This document shows positions 21,009-35,100 of a stretch of DNA of 35,940 nucleotides, piece after piece; position 1 is the first letter of the stretch; each line of letters starts with the position of its first letter. A program made the position numbers and the translations under genes. The notes under the pieces were generated by a model. It was not told the DNA's origin, did no database searches, and saw only the letters and a list, made by a program, of their open reading frames with translations. Source of the DNA: a virus; IMG/VR virus record IMGVR_UViG_3300038353_000001, positions 1 through 35,940 of that record; one strand, given 5' to 3'.

Positions 21009-22730
21009 TTAATAAGATTTACTTATAAAGCCATCGGTATTATCATTAGAATTACTTATTTGAGAAGGAGTCATACCCATAGCTGTTTGAGTAATAGAAT
21101 TATTCATAAGAGAACCCCAGTTATCAAGGTGTACTCTTAGTAATTCATCTTTACGAGATCTTATATTACGGTCTTCATCCTGGTTCATGTATTCAGTCCA
21201 GTAAGCTACAGCACCTGATAGAGCATCTAGTATATCATCGTGTACAAGAGAACCTCTATGTCTTGTTATACGAGACATCTGATAAAAAAGTTGAAGCTTT
21301 AGTTTTCTTTCTGGTGCTTCGTTGGGGTTAGATCTATAGTCTTTTTCTACAACCTTTCTATCAATAATTAGTCTATGAGAGTTCATTACAGGTTCTAAGG
21401 TATCGATTATGCGTAGTTCTTTGCTTTTAGTGTTTCTAACGTCTTTTACTTCGCAGGGATGGTAACGCATAAGGAAAGGTTTCATCAGTTCTGCAAACAT
21501 ACCACCACCCATGTTTGATTCTACAAGAATTGTATTTACGTTATTGGTCTTGGCTATCTTGGATAAGGTTGTTAATACTGCATCACTGTAACCACCGTTA
21601 AGACCCCCTGCATCAGGAACGTATAGATTTCCATTAAGCATCTTTACAACAGCGTAACCAGTGGCATCTCGGCCCTTTCCAGAAGGGTCTACAAACATAA
21701 CTGACCCTGTATATTCAATCCAATCACCAAATTGTTGTGCAGGGCGATAGAAATGATCACCATTAAACCCTACACAAGGTAATTCTTTGATTACATACTC
21801 TGGTGAAGAAGACCATATGACCTTTTCTGGTGCATGATCAGGATTTACTGAAGATATTATTAGGTCTGATAGCTTGAGAGGGTATCTATCCTGGTCTGAT
21901 AGGCTAGTGTCTAGCATAAATTGTAGAGAGAACCCAGAACGACCATAGGAGGCCTCTCGTTCCATCAGATCTATTGATGAGAACCTATCAGGGTCAACAG
22001 GTTCTTTAGGCTTTACAAGCTCTTGTACAAGCTTCTCAGTTAACTTAGGAGCTAATCTATCTCCATAGTTGTTTTTTATCTCTGGATAACGTGCAGTCCA
22101 GATGCGTGTGGTATATCCACGCTCTTCTAGTGTTAGATATAAAGATTGTTCTGTTTGTGGTGTACCAAGAAAGGTTATTTTACCGTTTGGTTTAAGAATG
22201 GCATCAAATTCTTTTACAGCTTCCGATAATTTATCTCTCATCGGTTGAGTAAAGCTGTTGTTTGGTACTTCCACATCATCAGCTATGACTTCATCTGCAC
22301 GACTACCTGCCATCTGTCCTAAAACACCTTGAGACTTTACTGAAGGTGCGTGGTCAGCGTGTGCAGGGCCAACATCAAAACTAATCTTTGAGTTTCTTTG
22401 AGAGTCATCTGGTCGTAATGGAGCAAGTACAGGCATCTCATTGATCAATCTCATAGTGAAAGTAGAAAAGTTATCTGCTCTATCCTTACTTGCAGATACA
22501 ACAAGGAACTTTAGTTGTGGATTCATCCGTAGTTTCCATACAACATAGGTAGATGTAATCCAACTCTTACCCACCCCTCTAAAGGCTTGTATAATCTTTC
22601 TACGAGGTCCGTATTGTAAATACTCAGCTATGTCTAATTGAACTGGTGTGGGGTCAGGAAGGTTAAGATGACGCCAGGTAATGATCAGGAAATATCTGAA
22701 GTCTTGTAGTTTCTCAGGAAGTGGCTGCAT
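21009..22730 (-). CDS. Terminase large subunit (T7 gp19-like)
   Basis: From ATG at 22730 the protein has 573 residues (T7 gp19: 586). The ATPase carries Walker A FRGVGKSW (Lys near residue 55), an adenine-motif region before it, and Walker B ADEVIADDVE near 145-155, followed by the coupling motif FLGTPQTEQS. The C-terminal nuclease shows MFVDPSGKGRDATGYAVV, VESNMGGG and HDDILDALSGA, with its metal-binding acidic residues. It drives DNA into the head and cuts the ends. A TTG at 22739 could add three residues. Either start lies within the end of the methylase-like gene. Confidence 0.95.
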   Translation of the reverse strand: MQPLPEKLQDFRYFLIITWRHLNLPDPTPVQLDIAEYLQYGPRRKIIQAFRGVGKSWITSTYVVWKLRMNPQLKFLVVSASKDRADNFSTFTMRLINEMPVLAPLRPDDSQRNSKISFDVGPAHADHAPSVKSQGVLGQMAGSRADEVIADDVEVPNNSFTQPMRDKLSEAVKEFDAILKPNGKITFLGTPQTEQSLYLTLEERGYTTRIWTARYPEIKNNYGDRLAPKLTEKLVQELVKPKEPVDPDRFSSIDLMEREASYGRSGFSLQFMLDTSLSDQDRYPLKLSDLIISSVNPDHAPEKVIWSSSPEYVIKELPCVGFNGDHFYRPAQQFGDWIEYTGSVMFVDPSGKGRDATGYAVVKMLNGNLYVPDAGGLNGGYSDAVLTTLSKIAKTNNVNTILVESNMGGGMFAELMKPFLMRYHPCEVKDVRNTKSKELRIIDTLEPVMNSHRLIIDRKVVEKDYRSNPNEAPERKLKLQLFYQMSRITRHRGSLVHDDILDALSGAVAYWTEYMNQDEDRNIRSRKDELLRVHLDNWGSLMNNSITQTAMGMTPSQISNSNDNTDGFISKSY

Positions 22731-23310
22731 ATTGTTCAAGAAAGCTGAGTTGAATAGGATAGTCTTCTGTCCATTGCTGGCTCATTGCCAGTGCTACTCC
22801 TTCATAGGTACGAGATCTGTTCTTCCACCTGTCAGGTCCTGGTGGCATCATATGCACTCTTGGTTCTCTACCCTCAACTATGTTTGTAGGTCTTAGTTTG
22901 GGTAAGTTCTTCAACCACAGGCAGGTTGCTTTTGTTTCTCCATGTCCAAACATCCAAGGTTGTATTGTCTGATCTGCTGGTCTTATAGCAGAACTTATGA
23001 TGCTGACAGGGTTTTCTATACACCATCTTTTAATTGGTGCGTTCATCAACAGCCTTACAAAATCAAGAGATTCTTTCTGTTCTTTCTGCTTTCTCCAAAA
23101 ATGCCTACTGCCTGATACTGCAAGGTGTTGGCAACTCGGATGGGCTACCATTAAATCAAATCCATCATAAAGAATATCTCTTACATCTCCTTCGTAGTGT
23201 GGTCCTTTTACTTCTGTAGGTAATAAATCACAGCTTAAAGCATCATGCCCCTGTGCTATAAACGCATCTCGCACTCTGCCAGAGTATTCACAGGCTACAA
23301 GAACTTTCAA
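22714..23310 (-). CDS. DNA cytosine methyltransferase-like protein
   Basis: The 198-residue protein must start at TTG (23310), because the conserved N-terminus KVLVACEYSGRVRDAFIAQG begins at once and the previous gene ends two bases upstream. This segment resembles the SAM-binding motif of C5 methylases. DLMVAHPSCQHLAVSG sits where motif IV (PCQ) is expected, and a later WCIENP segment recalls the ENV motif. RWKNRSRTYEGVALAMSQQW closes the conserved part. Members I recall are widespread in phages, annotated as methylases though short for a full C5 enzyme. It lies between the two terminase genes, suggesting a link with packaging or DNA protection. Confidence 0.75.
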   Translation of the reverse strand: MKVLVACEYSGRVRDAFIAQGHDALSCDLLPTEVKGPHYEGDVRDILYDGFDLMVAHPSCQHLAVSGSRHFWRKQKEQKESLDFVRLLMNAPIKRWCIENPVSIISSAIRPADQTIQPWMFGHGETKATCLWLKNLPKLRPTNIVEGREPRVHMMPPGPDRWKNRSRTYEGVALAMSQQWTEDYPIQLSFLEQYAATS

Positions 23311-23877: not shown

Positions 23878-24042
23878 TCAGTTCATCTTGGGAAACAACT
23901 GTTGCTCCAACATATCAACGGCTCTGTCATCAAGAGTGTTTGAGGTCTGCTTACAGATTGCACGAAGAAGATCGACTACTAATCTCTTTACAGCAGTTGT
24001 GGTAAAGAACTTTAGTAGTATGGGTTTTAAGATTTTCAGCAT
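23878..24042 (-). CDS. 54-residue amphipathic protein, possible membrane-active factor
   Basis: From ATG at 24042 it reads MLKILKPILLKFFTTTAVKR, then VVDLLRAICKQT and LDDRAVDMLEQQLFPKMN. The N-terminus is hydrophobic with regularly placed Lys, like an amphipathic helix. The longer version from 24075 needs a TTG start. I recall similar short proteins upstream of terminase genes in marine podoviruses. A role in lysis, as for T7 gp17.5 holin nearby in T7, is possible but unproven. Confidence 0.6.
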   Translation of the reverse strand: MLKILKPILLKFFTTTAVKRLVVDLLRAICKQTSNTLDDRAVDMLEQQLFPKMN

Positions 24043-24098
24043 AATTAGTATTGTGTTACTTTCCAAACATACCAATATTTGCTAAATTTGCCATATGG

Positions 24099-24157: not shown

Positions 24158-24397
24158 ATGGAAGATCAAGAACCAAGCAAAGTTGAAACCATTGTCAAAG
24201 TTTGTGTGCTTCTGTGGTCCGCAACGCTATTATCTCTTTCATATTACGAACCGCCATCTGGCAAAAAGATTGTAGATTTTGACCCGACATTTATTGCAAG
24301 TATTTTTTCAGCCAGTACTGCGTCACTAGGTTTTCAGATAAAGAAGAAAAAAGATACTATAGTAGATAATAAGAACTCTAAAGTAGGTATCAAATGA
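24158..24397 (+). CDS. Holin-like two-helix membrane protein
   Basis: The 79-residue protein has a probable membrane helix VCVLLWSATLLSLSY (about residues 14-28) and a second weaker one, FIASIFSASTASLGF (about 44-58). It ends in a charged tail, QIKKKKDTIVDNKNSK. Size, two helices and a positive C-terminus match class II holins, which open the inner membrane for lysis. It opens the plus-strand operon and overlaps the next gene by four bases (ATGA). No good Shine-Dalgarno sequence precedes it because a hairpin and T-run occupy that place. Confidence 0.65.
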   Translation: MEDQEPSKVETIVKVCVLLWSATLLSLSYYEPPSGKKIVDFDPTFIASIFSASTASLGFQIKKKKDTIVDNKNSKVGIK

Positions 24398-24909
24398 AAA
24401 AACTATTTGCTTTACTTTTATTTTTACCAACGGCTGCCTTTGCTGATATAAAACAGGAGTTTGTTACATCAGCACAAATTACAGTTGATATGCCCTATGT
24501 CGTAACAAATAAGGTAGGAACTACATATAGTCTTAGCGGAAATAATATTACACCATCTGTAACTATAGGAGATACTACAACATCAGGAAAAATTGGTGGG
24601 ATCAATGTTGGATCGTTAACTAATGGCGTTCCAGCGATGATACAAACAGACACCACAGTAACAAATGCAGGGTCAGCTTTTAGCAAAACAGAATCGGTAA
24701 TTATGGGTGACGCTACACCATCTACTGTCACCCCTTCCAGTGGTATAGCAGCATTGCCAGTATTAAGTGGACAGACTACTGTTGGATCAGGCGGTACTGC
24801 TGGATCGCTTGCATTAACTTCACTATCTAGCGGAGTTCATACTTGTACTGCTGGTGGATCGGGTACATCTTGCATAGGATCTACTAAAGTTACTATTACG
24901 ATTGACTAG
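24394..24909 (+). CDS. Secreted beta-rich protein, signal peptide
   Basis: The 171-residue protein starts MKKLFALLLFLPTAAFA, a textbook signal peptide with cleavage expected before DIKQEF. The mature part is rich in Thr, Ser, Gly and Val (SAQITVDMPYVVTNKVGTTY) and carries two Cys near the C-terminus (THTC-type HTCTAGGSGTSC). I recall similar secreted proteins in T4-like cyanophages. It would be exported to the periplasm, or be a virion or cell-surface protein. Translation is coupled to the holin-like gene. Confidence 0.7.
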   Translation: MKKLFALLLFLPTAAFADIKQEFVTSAQITVDMPYVVTNKVGTTYSLSGNNITPSVTIGDTTTSGKIGGINVGSLTNGVPAMIQTDTTVTNAGSAFSKTESVIMGDATPSTVTPSSGIAALPVLSGQTTVGSGGTAGSLALTSLSSGVHTCTAGGSGTSCIGSTKVTITID

Positions 24910-25339
24910 ACTTTACTGGTTAGTTTTACTATTATTACCTATAAGAACCCTTGCTGTGCCTGTCGTTCCACAATTTCGTTCGGGTACGAGCCAAACTTCA
25001 AGTACTTCTGAATCAGTAATAAATGAAACCATCACGAGCCATCAATACAGAACAGGATATTCCTATTCTGCATCAGGGCATAATATTGAAAGTTCCGATC
25101 TCAATGGATATATCAATCCTACAGCTACCACTCTTACAGAACAGACAGTTGGAGGGGTAAATTTTAGTTGGACTTCGCCAAACTTAGATGCTGTGCCAAG
25201 ATGGAAAATAACAAATGGTGGAGCAGCCTTTTCTCTTCAAGAAACTCTAATCACACCAGGATTAGACACAGTAACTACGATAACAAGAACAATAAACTCA
25301 AGCACCACAACAGAAACTACAACTACATTTGGTCAATAG
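24902..25339 (+). CDS. Secreted Ser/Thr-rich protein, TTG start
   Basis: A TTG at 24902, overlapping the end of the previous gene by eight bases, gives MTRLYWLVLLLLPIRTLA, a good signal peptide with cleavage before VPVVPQF. No suitable ATG exists. The mature part (about 127 residues) is beta-rich with NETITSHQYRTGYSYSASGH and ends in a Thr-rich tail, TTTETTTTFGQ. It resembles its neighbour in composition, suggesting a common origin. The final 139 bases are also open in the next gene's frame. Confidence 0.65.
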   Translation: MTRLYWLVLLLLPIRTLAVPVVPQFRSGTSQTSSTSESVINETITSHQYRTGYSYSASGHNIESSDLNGYINPTATTLTEQTVGGVNFSWTSPNLDAVPRWKITNGGAAFSLQETLITPGLDTVTTITRTINSSTTTETTTTFGQ

Positions 25340-25914
25340 TTTTATTACTTTGTCCTACAAAAGTTTTTGCTAATACTACAGTTGCAAGTCCTAGCTCTAA
25401 TGCTCAAGGTGTTGTAAATAATAATGCTACCATGATTACCCCTTCAGCAATGCCATCTTTTCGTATGAGTCAAGGTATAGTCTGTGCATCTCCTAGCCTA
25501 ACAATCACTCCTTATGTAACTGATGCTTGGTCATTTAACAGACCAATAGAGCAAGTCACTAGGCAGAATATATATGACGAAAATACTGGTGAGATAAAGT
25601 ATGTTCAAGAGACTCCTAGGTTTGAAAAAGATAATTACAATTTGAACTATGGTATCTCTGCTCAGATCAATATTCCACTAGGAAAATCACCAACACTTTG
25701 CCATGAAGCAACAATAGTAAATATCGAAGCTCAGAAGTTATTGATAAAGAAAACCAAAATGGAAATTAGCCTTTATCGTTTAGAGATGTGTGCAAAACAG
25801 GCAAAACTTGGAGTAACCTTTAAACCTAATACTCCCAGTGCTATTACTTGTGAAGATATTGTTGTTAATATCTCACCAAATCAAGTTATCCCACATACTC
25901 ACAAATTAAAGTAG
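25201..25914 (+). CDS. Third secreted protein of the operon, start uncertain
   Basis: From ATG 25201 the product has 237 residues, but its first 43 residues (MENNKWWSSLF... to RNYNY) overlap the previous gene and look like overprinted Asn-rich sequence. A signal peptide, IWSIVLLLCPTKVFA, follows directly, parallel to that of the neighbour, so the true start may be ATT at 25327. The mature protein includes SQGIVCASPSLTITPYVT, YGISAQINIPLGK and a C-terminus VNISPNQVIPHTHKLK with four Cys. I recall homologues in cyanomyoviruses ending in a similar PHTH motif. It is probably periplasmic or on the virion. Confidence 0.65.
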   Translation: MENNKWWSSLFSSRNSNHTRIRHSNYDNKNNKLKHHNRNYNYIWSIVLLLCPTKVFANTTVASPSSNAQGVVNNNATMITPSAMPSFRMSQGIVCASPSLTITPYVTDAWSFNRPIEQVTRQNIYDENTGEIKYVQETPRFEKDNYNLNYGISAQINIPLGKSPTLCHEATIVNIEAQKLLIKKTKMEISLYRLEMCAKQAKLGVTFKPNTPSAITCEDIVVNISPNQVIPHTHKLK

Positions 25915-25941
25915 ATAAGTCACGGGTATTACACTTATCTA
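25912..25941. terminator. Bidirectional terminator between convergent operons
   Basis: TAGATAAGT (25912-25920) pairs perfectly with ACTTATCTA (25933-25941) around a 12-base loop. The stem includes the stop codon of the plus-strand operon and lies eight bases from the end of the minus-strand gene at 25949. The AT-rich flanks fit a terminator working in both directions. Confidence 0.65.
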
Positions 25942-25948
25942 CGGATAA

Positions 25949-26584
25949 TTATTTTACATCTTTTTTCTTTTTTGTAAACTTATTTATGATCTGTTTTACT
26001 AATGGTTTTATAACATTAAGTAATAATGGAGTAGAGGCAGCGACAGTAGCAATAACAACTGTATTAACAACAGCACTAGCAGTTGGGATGTATTGATCGA
26101 TAAACGGAACGTCTTCATAGATAGCAATACATTCAATACCATCTTCTCCCCTCTTATAACCTTTTACTCTCTCTGTACGCAACTCTGATGTAAACTCACC
26201 GACCCTTCTGTCATTTTTACCAGGGCAATCAGGAATAACTATCTCTTCATCTTTTTTTTTTGGAATCGTAGCATCTGGTGTCTGTGCTTCTGGTAAGGGT
26301 GGGGTTTCATTATTAATAGGTGCTTCCTCTGTAATGACAAGATTCTCAGGTGTATAGTCAAGTGGTATAAAGCTAGGAAATGGAAAATCACAAGTTGTAA
26401 ACACTCCATTAGGATCTTCTAATAATAAATTACGATTACCAGTATTTTTTATATCTCGATGCTGATAAGTGCAACCAGGGACATCAATCTCAGGTGGCTT
26501 TGCTATCTGTAAATAATGGGGATTATAAGGCTCTGGTACGTTTGGAATATAAATATTTGGAATACTTATATCAGGTATTTCCAT
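25949..26584 (-). CDS. Pro-rich protein with C-terminal membrane helix, cyanophage family
   Basis: In the 211-residue protein the first 120 residues are rich in Pro, Ile and Glu (MEIPDISIPNIYIPNVPEPY). An acidic and basic linker follows, then IPTASAVVNTVVIATVAAST, a membrane segment near residues 168-192, and a Lys-rich tail, INKFTKKKKDVK. I recall this layout from cyanomyovirus proteins. A role in the virion or the host envelope is plausible. It ends facing the plus-strand operon and starts four bases after the preceding gene. Confidence 0.65.
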   Translation of the reverse strand: MEIPDISIPNIYIPNVPEPYNPHYLQIAKPPEIDVPGCTYQHRDIKNTGNRNLLLEDPNGVFTTCDFPFPSFIPLDYTPENLVITEEAPINNETPPLPEAQTPDATIPKKKDEEIVIPDCPGKNDRRVGEFTSELRTERVKGYKRGEDGIECIAIYEDVPFIDQYIPTASAVVNTVVIATVAASTPLLLNVIKPLVKQIINKFTKKKKDVK

Positions 26585-26588
26585 TTAT

Positions 26589-26807
26589 TCATTTTATTAT
26601 AGGCATTGATGGGCCTGTCATTTTAGGCAAACCATTATCTAATATTTTTGGCATCATGCCCTGTACATTACCAAGGATCTCATTCATAACTTGAGACTTG
26701 AAATTTTCAGATGTTACATATTTGTATCCTAGGTATGCTCCACCACTCATGGAAGCTACCATTACAAATGAAACTATGCTAAGAATATTAGCAATTTTTT
26801 GAAACAT
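26589..26807 (-). CDS. Small membrane protein, cyanophage family
   Basis: The 72-residue protein has an N-terminal membrane helix, IANILSIVSFVMVASMSGGA (residues about 5-27), then KYVTSENFKSQVMNEILGNV and a Met/Pro-rich end, LPKMTGPSMPIIK. I recall a conserved relative in T4-like cyanophages next to a Pro-rich partner, matching the neighbour here. Its ATG shares two bases with the ATG of the opposite-strand 43-residue gene (CATG). Confidence 0.65.
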   Translation of the reverse strand: MFQKIANILSIVSFVMVASMSGGAYLGYKYVTSENFKSQVMNEILGNVQGMMPKILDNGLPKMTGPSMPIIK

Positions 26808-26937
26808 GATTAAATTTGCAATTTTAAAAGCACTATCTTTTTCAAGTGTGCTTGTATTACTGCTTATTGTAGCCCTATCTCCTCTCTACGTCACTATGGG
26901 GTTAATGACAAGGCAGATGCAAGATAAGGTTAATTAA
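26806..26937 (+). CDS. 43-residue single-span membrane protein on the plus strand
   Basis: It encodes MIKFAILKALSFSSVLVLLL, then IVALSPLYVTMGLMTRQMQD and ends KVN. There is one hydrophobic helix (residues about 9-27) and a charged end. I recall nearly the same short peptide in cyanomyoviruses. It is divergent from the 72-residue membrane protein gene, with overlapping start codons, and no antisense gene explains this open frame. Confidence 0.55.
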   Translation: MIKFAILKALSFSSVLVLLLIVALSPLYVTMGLMTRQMQDKVN

Positions 26938-29166: not shown

Positions 29167-32100
29167 TAGTTTACCTCCGTTAAATTAAACTTGTATTTCT
29201 TGCCATTGCGTTTGTTAATCAAGAATAAATCCTCTGCTCCTTCTTGTATAGTATAACTTCCCCAAGTTCCGTCAACGTCATTAGATGAACCTTCGTTAGA
29301 TAAGTTAAGGTCATTGGTGTAGATGTTTCTCCAACGATAAGATGATGTACCTAAGTCGTAAGAGTTATTAGCACTTGGGTTAACAGTATTATAAAAAGTT
29401 GCTGATTTATCAGATGCAACTCTAAAAGAGTAAGAACCTGCTTGATTTAAAAAAGCAATAGAATTATCACTATAAGCATATACTGACCCTCTAGTAACTG
29501 CGTCACTTGTTTTAAAAATTAATTGACTTTGATTAGAGTCTCCATGAATAATACCGCCAGTTGTATGCGTTTCAATTTTTTTATTGTTGTTATGATATAG
29601 CTCTACTGCTCCGTCACCATGAGCTACTATTGAATTTTCATAACTGCCACTAGCATAATTAATTAAGCTAAATTTAGATGAAGTATGTGATGCTTGAAAT
29701 CCCCATAAATCAGCATTGTCATCACCTTCATCTGCATAAAGGAATACTTGACAAGTACCGCCTTCTGGTGCAAAAAATTGTGCGCCATGAGTAGATGTTT
29801 GAAAAGATTTATGATTATTGTGATATAGCTCTACGGCTCCACCATCAACTGATACTATATGATTATCAGCAGTTGAATGTGATCTTAAACGGTGAGTGTC
29901 ACTCATATAAATAAGCTCGCCTGTGCCGTTTTGCAGCTTACTATTTGTTCCGTCATGAAATATAGAAAGATCAGTACCAGCACCAAATTTCAAACGATCA
30001 TCAGAACTGCTAGCACTATCTCCAAACACAATATTTTTTGTATTAGTATCTAAGTCACCGCCTAGCTGTGGTGAGGTGTCATTTACCAGATCAGTATTTA
30101 CTGCTGCAAAACTTAAATTACCATTGGCATCTGTTTTTAAAAATGCACCATTAACAATAGCAGAAGGAAACGTAAGAGTATAGCTTTGCCCTGCACTATG
30201 CGGTGGAGATTTTAGTTTTATACCATGACTATTCTGACTACAGTTAAGTTGTAAATATCCATCAGAAGAACCATCACCTTTTACAATAACACCTGCGGTA
30301 GATGATGTAGATACAAGGCTCAGTTTGCTACCTGCAATATCAGCAGAGTTTGATATGTCTGCATTGACAATACTTCCATCAACGATCATTGCTGACGTTA
30401 CTGTGTTGTTGCTTGGTGTACCAATGTTTACAGTAGAACCAAGAACCACTGCAAAGTAATCTGACCCACTGGCAGGTGCAGCAGCTAACTTAACTGTGCT
30501 GCCTGATAAAGCAAAACCTTCCGAAGGTGTAGATGTACCAGCATTAGGTTTCTGTATAACACCATTAATACTTAAAATTATCTGCTGTGCATTGCTTGGT
30601 GCGTTTGTAATAGTAAAGTCCTGTACGCTTCCATTAAATGCAGGGCTAAGAGTAGATATAAAGAAGTTACCTACAGATTGTGCTTCTTCAAAAGCACCTG
30701 ATGTTGCGTTATATACTAATAACTTTTGAGTAGATGTGTTAAATATTAAATCACCTGCATCATTATCACTTGTAGGGTTTGTTGATACGACTCTATATCT
30801 ATTACCAAAATCATTTATATCTTCTGATAGCTGCAAAACATCTGTTTCTTTTGCTAATAACTTATGGTAGTTATATATCTGACTTGCACCTGTAGAACTA
30901 ACAAGCAAGCCTAATTCATTAGATAATGTCTTACTTCTTAGACTTGTAGGAAAGTTATTTATAGTTACGTTATCGCTTCCACTACCTACTGTCCTAGCGT
31001 TTGTTGCAACCCCAGAACTATTTATAACTAAGCCATCAGCATTACTGATACTAATAACAACACCTGACACTGGCTGTGTTGTAGGAAAACTATCTTCATC
31101 TGCTATAACTTCAAGTCCACCAACAGGTGCTATCTGGTTAGCAACAAAATCTACAACAGCACCAGAGGTAGGAAAGTGACTATCACTATTGGTAATAGTA
31201 GTCTGTTTAGACATTCCTGATACCTGGTTTAGATCAGCAGTAGAACCTGTAAAACCATCTAATTTATTTAGTTCACCTGTATTTGCTGTAACACCATCAA
31301 TAACTAATTTTTCTGCATCTGTAAGAGCATTTGTATTGCTGTTTGATTCGTATAAAGTCTTAATCTCACTAGCAGTTTGATCGGCTGTAGCACTAGCTTC
31401 AATAGCGTTAAGCTTGCTGTGGTCGGCATCTGTAAAGACGTTACTATCAGAAGCAGCTTCTACTGCTGCCCTTATCTCTGCATTGGTTTGATCTGCGGTA
31501 GCACCTGTCTCAATGCCATTTAGTTTTGTATGGTCTGCATCTGTAAATACATTTGAGTCTGTTGCTGACTCCACCAGCGTTCTTATCTCAGCAGCAGTTT
31601 GGTCAGCAGTTGCATTTGCTTCAATATTATTTAATTTAGTATGGTCAGCATCAGTAAACACGTTGCTATCACTAGCACTTTCAACAAGTGTTCTTATTTC
31701 TGCTGCTGTCTGGTCTGCTGTTGCAGAAGCTTCTATTGCATTTAACTTAGTATGATCTGCGTCAGTAAAGACATTACTATCACTTGCACTCTCTACTAAT
31801 GTTCTGATCTCTGCTGCTGTTTGATCTCCTGTTGCATTTTCTTCAATAGTTCCTAACTTATCAATAATCTCTTGTTGAGCAAATATAACCTGATCTGCGT
31901 TGGTATCTAAATCTGTCTCTGTAAGAACACTACCGTCTTGAAAATCTACTTTCTTTGCACTTATATCTGTATCTCTTTGAAACTTAATAGCAACACCGTT
32001 ACCAGGTTCATTACCACTGGTAAATGTAATCTGAGTTGCACTAGAAAATGTATAGTGAGTTGTTATGGTTTTTAGTACACCACCTACAGTTACATCTACT

Positions 32101-32195
32101 TCTGCTTCTGAAAGATAGGAAAAAGAAATACTAAACGGACCAGCAGTACCGTTGCCTGTGTGGTTTGTAAAAGATGCTGCGGTGTTAGTTGCCAT
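29166..32195 (-). CDS. Main tail fibre protein (T7 gp17-like N-terminus)
   Basis: The protein has 1009 residues. The first 110 residues (FSISFSYLSEAEVDVTVGGV, VDFQDGSVLTETDLDTNADQ) match the T7 fibre N-terminal domain that binds the tail. Residues 117-301 are five 37-residue repeats. Then come SKQTTITNSDSHFPTSGAVV and modules such as LVNDTSPQLGGDLDTNTKNI and SIFHDGTNSKLQNG. The end, WRNIYTNDLNLSNEG to GKKYKFNLTEVN, is a common cyanophage fibre terminus. It recognises the host cell. Confidence 0.92.
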   Translation of the reverse strand: MATNTAASFTNHTGNGTAGPFSISFSYLSEAEVDVTVGGVLKTITTHYTFSSATQITFTSGNEPGNGVAIKFQRDTDISAKKVDFQDGSVLTETDLDTNADQVIFAQQEIIDKLGTIEENATGDQTAAEIRTLVESASDSNVFTDADHTKLNAIEASATADQTAAEIRTLVESASDSNVFTDADHTKLNNIEANATADQTAAEIRTLVESATDSNVFTDADHTKLNGIETGATADQTNAEIRAAVEAASDSNVFTDADHSKLNAIEASATADQTASEIKTLYESNSNTNALTDAEKLVIDGVTANTGELNKLDGFTGSTADLNQVSGMSKQTTITNSDSHFPTSGAVVDFVANQIAPVGGLEVIADEDSFPTTQPVSGVVISISNADGLVINSSGVATNARTVGSGSDNVTINNFPTSLRSKTLSNELGLLVSSTGASQIYNYHKLLAKETDVLQLSEDINDFGNRYRVVSTNPTSDNDAGDLIFNTSTQKLLVYNATSGAFEEAQSVGNFFISTLSPAFNGSVQDFTITNAPSNAQQIILSINGVIQKPNAGTSTPSEGFALSGSTVKLAAAPASGSDYFAVVLGSTVNIGTPSNNTVTSAMIVDGSIVNADISNSADIAGSKLSLVSTSSTAGVIVKGDGSSDGYLQLNCSQNSHGIKLKSPPHSAGQSYTLTFPSAIVNGAFLKTDANGNLSFAAVNTDLVNDTSPQLGGDLDTNTKNIVFGDSASSSDDRLKFGAGTDLSIFHDGTNSKLQNGTGELIYMSDTHRLRSHSTADNHIVSVDGGAVELYHNNHKSFQTSTHGAQFFAPEGGTCQVFLYADEGDDNADLWGFQASHTSSKFSLINYASGSYENSIVAHGDGAVELYHNNNKKIETHTTGGIIHGDSNQSQLIFKTSDAVTRGSVYAYSDNSIAFLNQAGSYSFRVASDKSATFYNTVNPSANNSYDLGTSSYRWRNIYTNDLNLSNEGSSNDVDGTWGSYTIQEGAEDLFLINKRNGKKYKFNLTEVN
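31293..31847 (-). repeat. Five tandem 37-residue (111-bp) repeats in the main fibre
   Basis: Units cover residues 117-153, 154-190, 191-227, 228-264 and 265-301 of the fibre. The core is DQTAAEIRTLVES and SNVFTDADHTKLN. Units 1-3 are nearly identical in protein but differ at many third codon positions; units 4 and 5 diverge. The repeats would lengthen the fibre shaft. Confidence 0.85.
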
Positions 32196-32197
32196 GA

Positions 32198-35100
32198 TTA
32201 ATTAAGTTGGTTAAAACCTTCAAGGATGTCATTGTTGGCTTCTTGCCTTATAGCAGATTGCAACTGTTTATATTCTAGTTCACGTTCTGGATTTTTACTC
32301 AACCAAACTTTTTTACCAGCCCTTTTGTATTTATTTACAATATCTCTTAATATATCTTCTGCTAAATCCCTATTAGCTTCTTGTGCTTTAACTTCAATAT
32401 CCATATTATTCTGTTCTATTAATTCACCTCTTACACTTTTCATTAATGCTTGAAAATCTTTTTGTTGAATCCTGTTGTTCAAAGCTCTTACCATAGTTAT
32501 ACCATTAATTTTTACAAAAGCAGTTTCTTCAATCAAATCAAGATGTTCGTCATATGTTAGTTCTATCCCACTTCCTATAGCTTGACCACTAGGAAGTCTT
32601 CCAATATTTAACTCATCTGATGGCTGTGTAATTCTTGCACCAATATCATCAAGAGTTGTAAGAACATTGTTGTTGATGCTATCTGTTTCTTTTATAGGAT
32701 TAAGAATATTCATAGTGTCAGGACCAAAACCAACAGGATATTCAATAACAGAACCAGTTATAAAGTTTCTCATTGGTCTTAGACCGCCAGTATAACCAGG
32801 TATTGTTGCAGCTAATTCATTGTGAAATTTTCTAAGTACTACAAATCCATCATCACCTGCTCTTACTTTTTTATCTAAAATCCTTTGATCACCTGGTAAT
32901 TGACCATATGAAGTTGTAAGACCACTTCTTTTTACTGATCTTCCAAAGGAACTAAAAGGGTTAGTAGTTGCTGCTGCTCTTCTGGCAAGCCAACTTTCTA
33001 ATTTATAAGGCTTACCTAATAAATCAGCCAATTCAGTAATACCTTGTAGATAAGTTTTGTTTGTAATATTACGACCTAATGCAACAGAAGCAGCAACACC
33101 AAAATCATCACGGTCCTGTTTGCTAAGACTACCTGTAATAGCTGCTGCATCGGCAGCCATCATAAGAAAAGAAGACCAAGGATCTAATCTTTTAAAAGTT
33201 ACATATTTATATCTAGGCTTTCCATCTTTACCCATGCGTACATTGCCATTTTCATCTTTTAAAAGAAATCTAAAACTGTAAGGTTGCCAACCTGTAGCTC
33301 GTTTCTGATTAAGCATATTGAAATCAGAAGGACCACCACCTGTTATTGCCAACTCAGACATAGGATCATTAATTGAATAAGCTGTAAGACCTGCAATAGC
33401 CCAAATAGAACCACCAAGTATCATTTCACCTTTTGCTTTTGCTACTACAGATGGATCAGTGCTTTTTAACGCTTGTCTGTATTCTTGTAACAACATATTT
33501 ACACCAGGAGTTCTTCTTACCTGTGTTTTAAATATATTTATTGGTGTTCTTACAAATGGAAAAACTATTCGACCTGCTGGATGTCTTGCCACTCCTTGTA
33601 TTGCACCACCCAAACTACCTTCTGGTAAATCGGCAGTAAATGTAGTTTCAGCAGCATATTGCTGTGCTTTTTCGTATAGATCCAAAACAGACTTATCTTT
33701 AACATTTGCCATGCTGTTCTTATTAATAATTTCAATAGTGCCATCAAACTGTCTTTGTATATGATCTTGCAAATCAGCACCTTGCAAACCTTTTCTCATG
33801 CCATCTTCCCAAGCACTTGCTTTTACATAAGCTCTAAAATTTAACTGCTTAAAAAATTCATCTTCTGCAAGTAAAAAACGACTAGGCAAACGAATAATCG
33901 TACCAAAAGCATTAACTATATTTGCTAAATTACCATCACCTTCCATCCTTACTTGAAAGCGATCAGCATCTTGAATCATTGCACCAGGGTTAACAATATT
34001 ATCTTCAATCTGAAAAGATAGCTTTGCACCTTTTAAAGAATCAGTAATAGATGACATTAGATAATAAAGTTCCTTACCACCTCTGATAGCACCTGTCATA
34101 TCACCTTGAGCAAAAGAACCAAGTGTTTGTTCTAACGGTCTAGCTAAAGTATTTAAACCAGTAGAAAGAATGTTGACAGCGTGTGTTTCTGGTCCTGATA
34201 ATATTGAGTTTATAAATATTTCGTTTTGAACTTTTAGTCCTCTCATCAGTTTGCTTTCATTAGCCATTTTCTGCAAGGCTTGAGGATTACCTTGTGCAGC
34301 TTGTAGTTTTTTTGTAATTATTCTTAGTTTTTTCCAAGATGCCTTATCACCTTTTTCAGCAGCATCTAATATTTCTTGCATTGAAAATTCAGCTAATGGA
34401 TCTGTAGGTTCTTTAACTGTTCCTCTAATATCAGTAGCCTGATCTATTGCTTTTTCTGTTGGTGTTCGACCTGTTAAATCTTCTACAGAAGCAGCAACTT
34501 TGCCTACTCCACCACCTGCTCTGTTAGCAGCTAGTGTTTGTGCAGGTACTGTTTTGAGTGGTTTGTTAAGAGTAATAAGACCATCTAGTACTTTTGCTTC
34601 TCTAATAAATTGTTTTTTTAATTCTTCAGAAAATCCACTTTTGTTACCTGTGGCTAAAGTTTCATCAATAGTTTTTGCTAATGAAGCTAGGTTGATAGCA
34701 TTTTTATTCATCAACTGATTCATTGCAATCAATGTTGCAGGTAAGTCTTCTTCTCCCCCTCTGCCATATCTAGCATTAAATAATCTTGCAGATTCGATAA
34801 CTTCTGCTGGTAATAGATCATTTGCATTTTTGACCATATCAGCAAAAGTTCTTTTGTAAGGCCAAGCATTATTAGAGTCTAATTTTTTTAATTCATCTGC
34901 TCTTTTTAAAATTAGTTCTTGCACATCAGGATCACCACCGCCTGTAAATTTAGGATTAAATGTAGTTTCTACTTTGTCTCCTTCTTTTACAACTTTGTTA
35001 GGAAGATTAAGATCATCAATAATTTCATCACCAAGATTATCAACAACATTATCTGTCATTAATATTTCATCTCTTCTTGATAATCTGTTAATTACTCTTT

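Follow-up and report, generated by a model that had tools for sequence, protein, structure and literature searches.

In phage T7, the holin gene 17.5 and the Rz/Rz1 genes are situated between the tail-fibre and terminase genes. Two-component spanins (Rz/Rz1; T7 18.5/18.7) consist of a coiled-coil i-spanin, which carries an N-terminal transmembrane (TM) segment and a periplasmic coiled coil, and of a lipoprotein, and a lipobox occurs, to our knowledge, in every known spanin system. Ninety-one phages, including most marine cyanophages, were classified as spanin-less; it was suggested that the hosts of spanin-less cyanophages might possess a fragile outer membrane, or that the part of the i-spanin could be taken by a protein of N-out/C-in topology with a TM segment at its C-terminus and that of the o-spanin by an outer membrane protein (OMP) (Kongari et al., 2018; PMC6139136). 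Known from the T4-like cyanophages, moreover, is a mobile cluster of hypothetical genes comprising T4-GCs 218, 219, 234, 235 and 237 and a ‘plasmid stability’ gene, which was described for all cyanophages of that study except S-PM2 (Sullivan et al., 2010; PMC3037559). As far as the accessible part of that report extends, it deals with T4-like phages only, gives no function and makes no mention of dual coding, of copies in T7-like phages or siphoviruses, or of lysis (Sullivan et al., 2010). No link of this gene set to T7-like or siphovirus cyanophages, to lysis or to dual coding was found in the open-access literature.

The sequence examined here, hereafter called the window, comprises the 35,940 bases of the IMG/VR virus record IMGVR_UViG_3300038353_000001. 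We infer that a gene block in it represents, in its podovirus version, a cell-envelope cassette conserved among cyanophages (p1 to p6, here accompanied by p0 and p7) with a late role in envelope disruption, i.e., lysis, and assign to this reading a probability of about 0.5. It builds on direct observations, namely the gene content, a layout conserved in cyanophages of the T7-like, T4-like and siphovirus groups, the overlap of p3 and p4 and the joint presence or absence of p1 and p4.

The window encodes a T7-like RNA polymerase (RNAP), primase/helicase, connector, scaffold, capsid, tail tube, nozzle and terminase, with nearly all genes on the minus strand. No DNA polymerase A gene was present in 1–35940, despite genes for RNAP, primase/helicase, SSB, endonuclease I and exonuclease. 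With a T7-like RNAP, primase, capsid and tail genes and no DNA polymerase A, the phage resembles in gene content the MPP-C clade of cyanopodoviruses (PMC9860041). The record is circularly permuted compared to T7, and a DNA-methyltransferase-like gene (22714–23310, phrog_757) is located between the terminase subunits. None of the window ORFs scanned could be recognised as a holin, a spanin or a soluble endolysin, the sole lysis-type match being a virion SLT domain. An Rfam search yielded no match, sigma-70-like sites remained at chance level, and a Toxin-deaminase Pfam match of a 107-aa neighbour lay below the cut-off and was not used.

A preliminary description had reported, in a genome read almost wholly from the minus strand, four plus-strand genes at 24158–25914 coding for one membrane protein and three proteins with signal-peptide-like N-termini, all of which could be confirmed from the ORFs. 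The first, p1 (24158–24397, plus strand), encodes a two-pass membrane protein of 79 aa belonging to DUF6450 (PF20048; 64.7 bits at a Pfam cut-off of 25) and to phrog_21865/721/2714. A short N-in terminus, two likely TM segments and a K-rich C-terminal tail give it a layout resembling that of a class II holin; in a 19-residue hydropathy scan the first segment alone passed, and no holin family was matched in PHROGs or Pfam. Going by size and two TM segments only, p1 is a putative holin-like protein of the inner membrane. Its identity to the copy in siphovirus MED4-184 amounts to 98.7% on the amino acid and 85% on the nucleotide level, and therefore strong purifying selection on p1 can be assumed. 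A recent transfer of p1 from this siphovirus was ruled out, as the nucleotide identity is only 85% and the differences are nearly all synonymous; a leader hairpin upstream of p1 was likewise discarded as not significant (z −1.2). Divergent from p1 lies p0 (23878–24075, minus strand, 65 aa; phrog_2738/402), which adjoins the cassette in about two thirds of the podo/siphovirus-type loci and also in MED4-184 and P-SCSP1u.

The three secreted proteins are p2 (24394–24909, plus strand, 171 aa; phrog_564, Syn9 gp167, T4-GC 237), which is beta- and Thr-rich and whose homologues are labelled ‘OMP1’ in some records, p3 (24902–25339, plus strand, 145 aa; DUF6322, PF19847, phrog_650, Syn9 gp166, T4-GC 236) and p4 (25168–25914, plus strand; phrog_1755/848, Syn9 gp165, T4-GC 235). 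Their hydrophobic N-termini with AxA-type sites, read directly from the sequence, are signal-like, with predicted cleavage in p2 between MKKLFALLLFLPTAAFA and D, in p3 between MTRLYWLVLLLLPIRTLA and V, and in p4 between a stretch ending in IWSIVLLLCPTKVFA and N. A lipobox is absent from all three, since the signal sequences end in AFA, TLA and VFA, followed by D, V and N, with no cysteine at +1. p2 is a weak paralogue of p3: phrog_564, the family of p2, is matched by p3 at E 0.2, and the p3 profile also matches the p2 gene in some genomes.

On the convergent side, a hairpin between p4 and p5 (25911–25942) overlaps the p4 stop codon and forms a perfect 10-bp stem (25911–25920/25933–25942) with a 12-nt loop. 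p5 (25949–26584, minus strand; phrog_570, Syn9 gp164, T4-GC 234) is a Pro-rich protein of 211 aa with 26 Pro and four Cys, a single C-terminal TM segment (171–189) and a K-rich tail, for which the positive-inside rule predicts an N-out/C-in topology. p6 (26589–26807, minus strand, 72 aa) has one N-terminal TM segment and matches phrog_568 with 59.4 bits. No function is known for the cassette families, phrog_568 carrying only the label ‘plasmid stability’, for which nothing examined gave support in p6. Back-to-back with the p6 start lies p7 (26806–26937, plus strand, 43 aa, single TM), which is kept in 93 loci of the podo-/siphovirus type, in each of them at the start of p6; in MED4-184 no gene is annotated at this position. 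Two structural claims of the preliminary description stood in part. Overlap coupling applies to p1/p2 (ATGA) and to p2/p3 (TTG start of p3, 8-nt overlap), but not to p3/p4, where a nearby start is lacking and the overlap spans about 170 (or 139) nt. The supposed bidirectional terminator is a real hairpin (fold z −4.0 on the plus and −4.7 on the minus strand), but has no strong T tract, and a strict scan detected no terminator.

The block is the same as the cluster of T4-like cyanophages introduced above, with p5 corresponding to T4-GC 234, p4 to 235, p3 to 236 and p2 to 237, with p2, p3 and p4 in the conserved order and convergent with p5 and p6, and with p6 (phrog_568) matching the associated ‘plasmid stability’ gene (Sullivan et al., 2010). 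From T4-like cyanophages it is thus already known, as hypothetical genes that form a cluster; in Syn9, gp161–gp167 represent p1, p6, p5b, p5, p4, p3 and p2 in that order. Translated searches of 50,697 phage records matched p4 in 399, p3 in 390, p5 in 256, p1 in 118 and p2 in 53, and by name these were exclusively cyanophages, Synechococcus or Prochlorococcus phages, or marine/uncultured viruses. Chance can be excluded, because the homologues of each product occur in cyanophage records numbering from dozens to hundreds. In 84,980 bacterial and archaeal genomes no cellular homologue was detected at the sensitivity used; eight contigs matched, which we take to be phage or phage contamination and which derive from two Prochlorococcus single-cell assemblies and six unrelated MAGs or isolates. 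The cassette copies in assemblies bearing the names Nonlabens, Formosa, Bacteroidetes, Lewinella, Euryarchaeota and Gammaproteobacteria are probably cyanophage contigs.

Four viral-contig scans yielded 316 loci, or 321 together with the window and annotated loci. In these 321, many of which are incomplete, p3 was present in 315, p5 in 305, p2 in 287, p6 in 267 and p1 in 205. Two layouts prevail: the podo/siphovirus type with p1, p2, p3 and p4 on the plus and p5 and p6 on the minus strand, and the T4-like type with p2, p3 and p4 on the plus and p5, (p5b), p6 and p1 on the minus strand. MED4-184, whose record annotates a tail tape measure, carries the cassette as well. The MED4-184-like subfamily of p4 was adjoined by a T7-like terminase in six loci and by MED4-184-type genes in 21; for the window-like subfamily the corresponding counts were two and 14. 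This mixture of cassette subfamilies over phage backgrounds fits exchange, with the restriction that MED4-184-type neighbours are no proof of a siphovirus. Of the cyanophages listed as spanin-less, 22 were tested; 16 carry p1, p3 and p4 and six carry none of them (S-PM2, Syn5, P60, P-SS2, S-CBS4, Pf-WMP4). Counted over these 22 and three further genomes, p1 and p4 were jointly present or absent in 25/25, although the genomes are related and do not represent 25 independent events. The cassette belongs to the regular equipment of most of the marine cyanophages tested and is not a recent arrival in the window phage.

T7-like cyanopodoviruses share it, too. P-SSP7, P-SCSP1u and P-SCSP2 possess p1, p3 and p4 together with a p5-like gene, placed as in the window between tail-fibre and terminase genes. 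In P-SSP7, genes 042–045 represent the p5-like gene, p1, p3 and p4, and its record assigns two TM segments to 043 and a possible signal peptide to 044; p4 overlaps p3 as in the window, whereas the cassette lies entirely on one strand, with no p2 or p6 found. As to orientation, p1, p3 and p4 run opposite to most genes in P-SCSP2 (31159–32244) and P-SCSP1u (33107–34192), as they do in the window, and are co-directional with the genome in P-SSP7. The statement of the preliminary description that T7-like phages normally encode no such proteins therefore fails for cyanopodoviruses, as these three genomes show. Its mention of homologues in T4-like cyanophages, minus-strand neighbours included, was borne out by homology searches and layout comparison. 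The module moving between unrelated cyanophage groups that it envisaged was upheld as a shared block with subfamilies not following the phage background, not as a newcomer in this phage.

The p3/p4 junction deserved closer attention. In the window no ATG, GTG or TTG occurs near the p3 stop from which p4 could start; the nearest candidates, TTG 25168 and the alternative ATG 25201, both lie inside p3. A dual-coding stretch (25168–25339, plus strand) thereby comprises the C-terminus of p3 and the N-terminus of p4 in the −1 frame, and a Shine-Dalgarno-like GGAGGGG (25151–25157, plus strand) is located 10 nt upstream of the internal start. The lead of p4 is basic and N/H/K/R-rich, a composition that results in part from the Thr-rich frame of p3, and is followed by a hydrophobic core and an AxA-type site near 25371; mature p4 has four conserved Cys and a C-terminal HxH. 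Start codons near the p3 stop were lacking in most of 315 loci and occurred at no conserved place, while the p4 frame was open far into p3, with the p4 start about 110–170 nt inside p3, in a second frame. For 79 representatives below 85% identity, the last 45 p3 codons were free of stops in the p4 frame in 78, compared to 7.2 expected under a synonymous recoding of p3 from its own codons; the +1 frame was open over the same codons in 1/79. The start itself is conserved within types, being an ATG at −166 in 138/151 T4-like loci, a TTG at −172 in 80/80 window-type loci and an ATG at −139 in 77/78 MED4-184-type loci, and a Shine-Dalgarno-like motif preceded the first internal start in 69/78 representatives (9.8 expected). 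Suppression of synonymous sites in the overlap was weak (p = 0.02, 0.47 and 0.02 in three groups), which implies that the p4 lead must stay open while its exact residues may vary. A frameshift from p3 into p4 was rejected, as no canonical in-frame X XXY YYZ heptamer occurs near the p3 stop at the two junctions inspected (window, S-CAM22), and it is unnecessary, since the conserved internal start with its Shine-Dalgarno motif explains the p4 frame; a non-AUG start at the p3 stop (ATT 25327 or ATA 25336) is superfluous for the same reason. A DUF4141 Pfam match of p4 fell below the cut-off and was left unused.

AlphaFold2 was run on alignments A1 (73) and A2 (58). The p4 model (pLDDT 66, pTM 0.33) displays a long beta hairpin of 21 + 22 residues followed by a 41-residue helix, the p3 model (pLDDT 81, pTM 0.45) beta strands of 23 and 24 residues. 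Structure prediction, which had been proposed as a check, thus delivered long beta hairpins in weak models and no confident fold match: among solved structures neither model had a significant match, and a sequence-profile search of the PDB found nothing. The insignificant matches comprised flagellar rings, phage tails and pores whose stems are long hairpins; they may merely reflect a common arrangement, and are a hint rather than evidence of a pore.

Among the roles named in the preliminary description, lysis, a function we infer, fits best. The cassette shares with two-component spanins and holin 17.5 the map position, two envelope-directed genes in overlapping frames (p3/p4), a small two-TM protein nearby and a Pro-rich envelope domain. 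It differs from spanins in that three secreted beta-rich proteins take the place of the coiled-coil i-spanin and the lipoprotein, and no sequence similarity to two-component spanins was found. With regard to i-spanin traits, p4 offers a hydrophobic N-terminus and a 41-aa helix, but also a cleavage-like AxA site, and p6 an N-terminal TM segment, but only 72 aa. Since a lipobox is lacking, the cassette is no member of the spanin family, and the best-supported view is that it works like a holin and spanins while standing outside that family. Acting late, at lysis, p1 would be the holin-like protein of the inner membrane, and p2 to p4 would be exported by Sec into the periplasm or the outer membrane; there p3 and p4, which have unusually long beta hairpins, may assemble; p5, with its Pro-rich domain predicted to be periplasmic, and p6 would be inner-membrane partners, and p1 to p6 would jointly breach or bridge the outer membrane in place of spanins. 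The specific version, in which a ring or pore of p2/p3/p4 is coupled to type I inner-membrane p5 and holin p1 for a spanin-independent disruption of the outer membrane, is offered tentatively and is rather doubtful. If true, it would explain the apparent lack of spanins in cyanophages, and in p3/p4 the cyanophage groups would have retained a dual-coding pair that is analogous but unrelated to Rz/Rz1. A concrete set of genes is thus proposed for the opening of the outer membrane of Prochlorococcus and Synechococcus, common to three tail types, present or absent as a unit and directed to the envelope.

Promoter motifs point the same way. The octamer NATAAATA, which we take to be the T4-type late promoter, was found upstream of p2 in 51/139 and upstream of p1 in 66/110 T4-like loci at a background of 1.9% per window, with 0–1 matches upstream of p5/p6, and the cassette looks late-expressed. 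Besides the missing lipobox and the poor p4 model, two observations speak against lysis: in T4-like phages the cassette genes are placed among replication genes, and the six cassette-free phages still lyse their hosts, the Syn5 and P60 regions containing other small TM proteins but no recognisable cassette.

The late-type octamers upstream of both half-operons in T4-like phages also speak against envelope modification or superinfection exclusion, since genes for exclusion are as a rule expressed early. In this reading the secreted proteins would coat or plug the outer membrane and block receptors or the entry of later phage DNA, and p1, p5 and p6 would act on the inner membrane. Secreted and small membrane proteins would suit such systems, cassette subfamilies appear to be exchanged between phage types, and the exclusion lipoprotein TraT is among the fold matches of p4, though only marginally (rank 37, E 0.97); p1, however, is conserved near-universally and does not diversify as an arms-race gene would, so that we consider this role unlikely. 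Somewhat less likely still is another periplasmic task, such as inhibition of host periplasmic proteases, envelope upkeep or nutrient capture, which agrees with products predicted to be Sec-secreted and matching no enzyme family in PHROGs or Pfam, but does not explain why in podoviruses the genes lie at a T7-lysis-like map position, or why they are obligately paired with a two-TM protein. That the proteins are virion-associated (forming an entry channel or decorating the tail or capsid) with incidental hydrophobic N-termini is improbable in spite of phage tail proteins among the weak long-hairpin, ring-forming fold matches and of tail fibres adjoining the cassette in the window, as three cleavable signal peptides would remove them from the cytoplasm, where tailed phages assemble, and as the p2–p4 homologues in the S-TIM5, S-SSM5 and S-SM2 records, judged by record labels only, are not labelled ‘virion structural’, a label that S-TIM5 applies to other nearby genes.

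The conserved overlap also explains why the signal peptide of p4 was missed by annotation. In P-SCSP2, p4 starts 56 nt inside p3 and has an ordinary signal peptide. In P-SSP7, the GenBank start of PSSP7_045 (38783) lies after the signal peptide and removes it; the open frame of p4 extends over 38627–39238, and its first start, GTG 38627 inside PSSP7_044, is the only ATG, GTG or TTG upstream of the signal peptide, by which the gene start in this reference genome is corrected.
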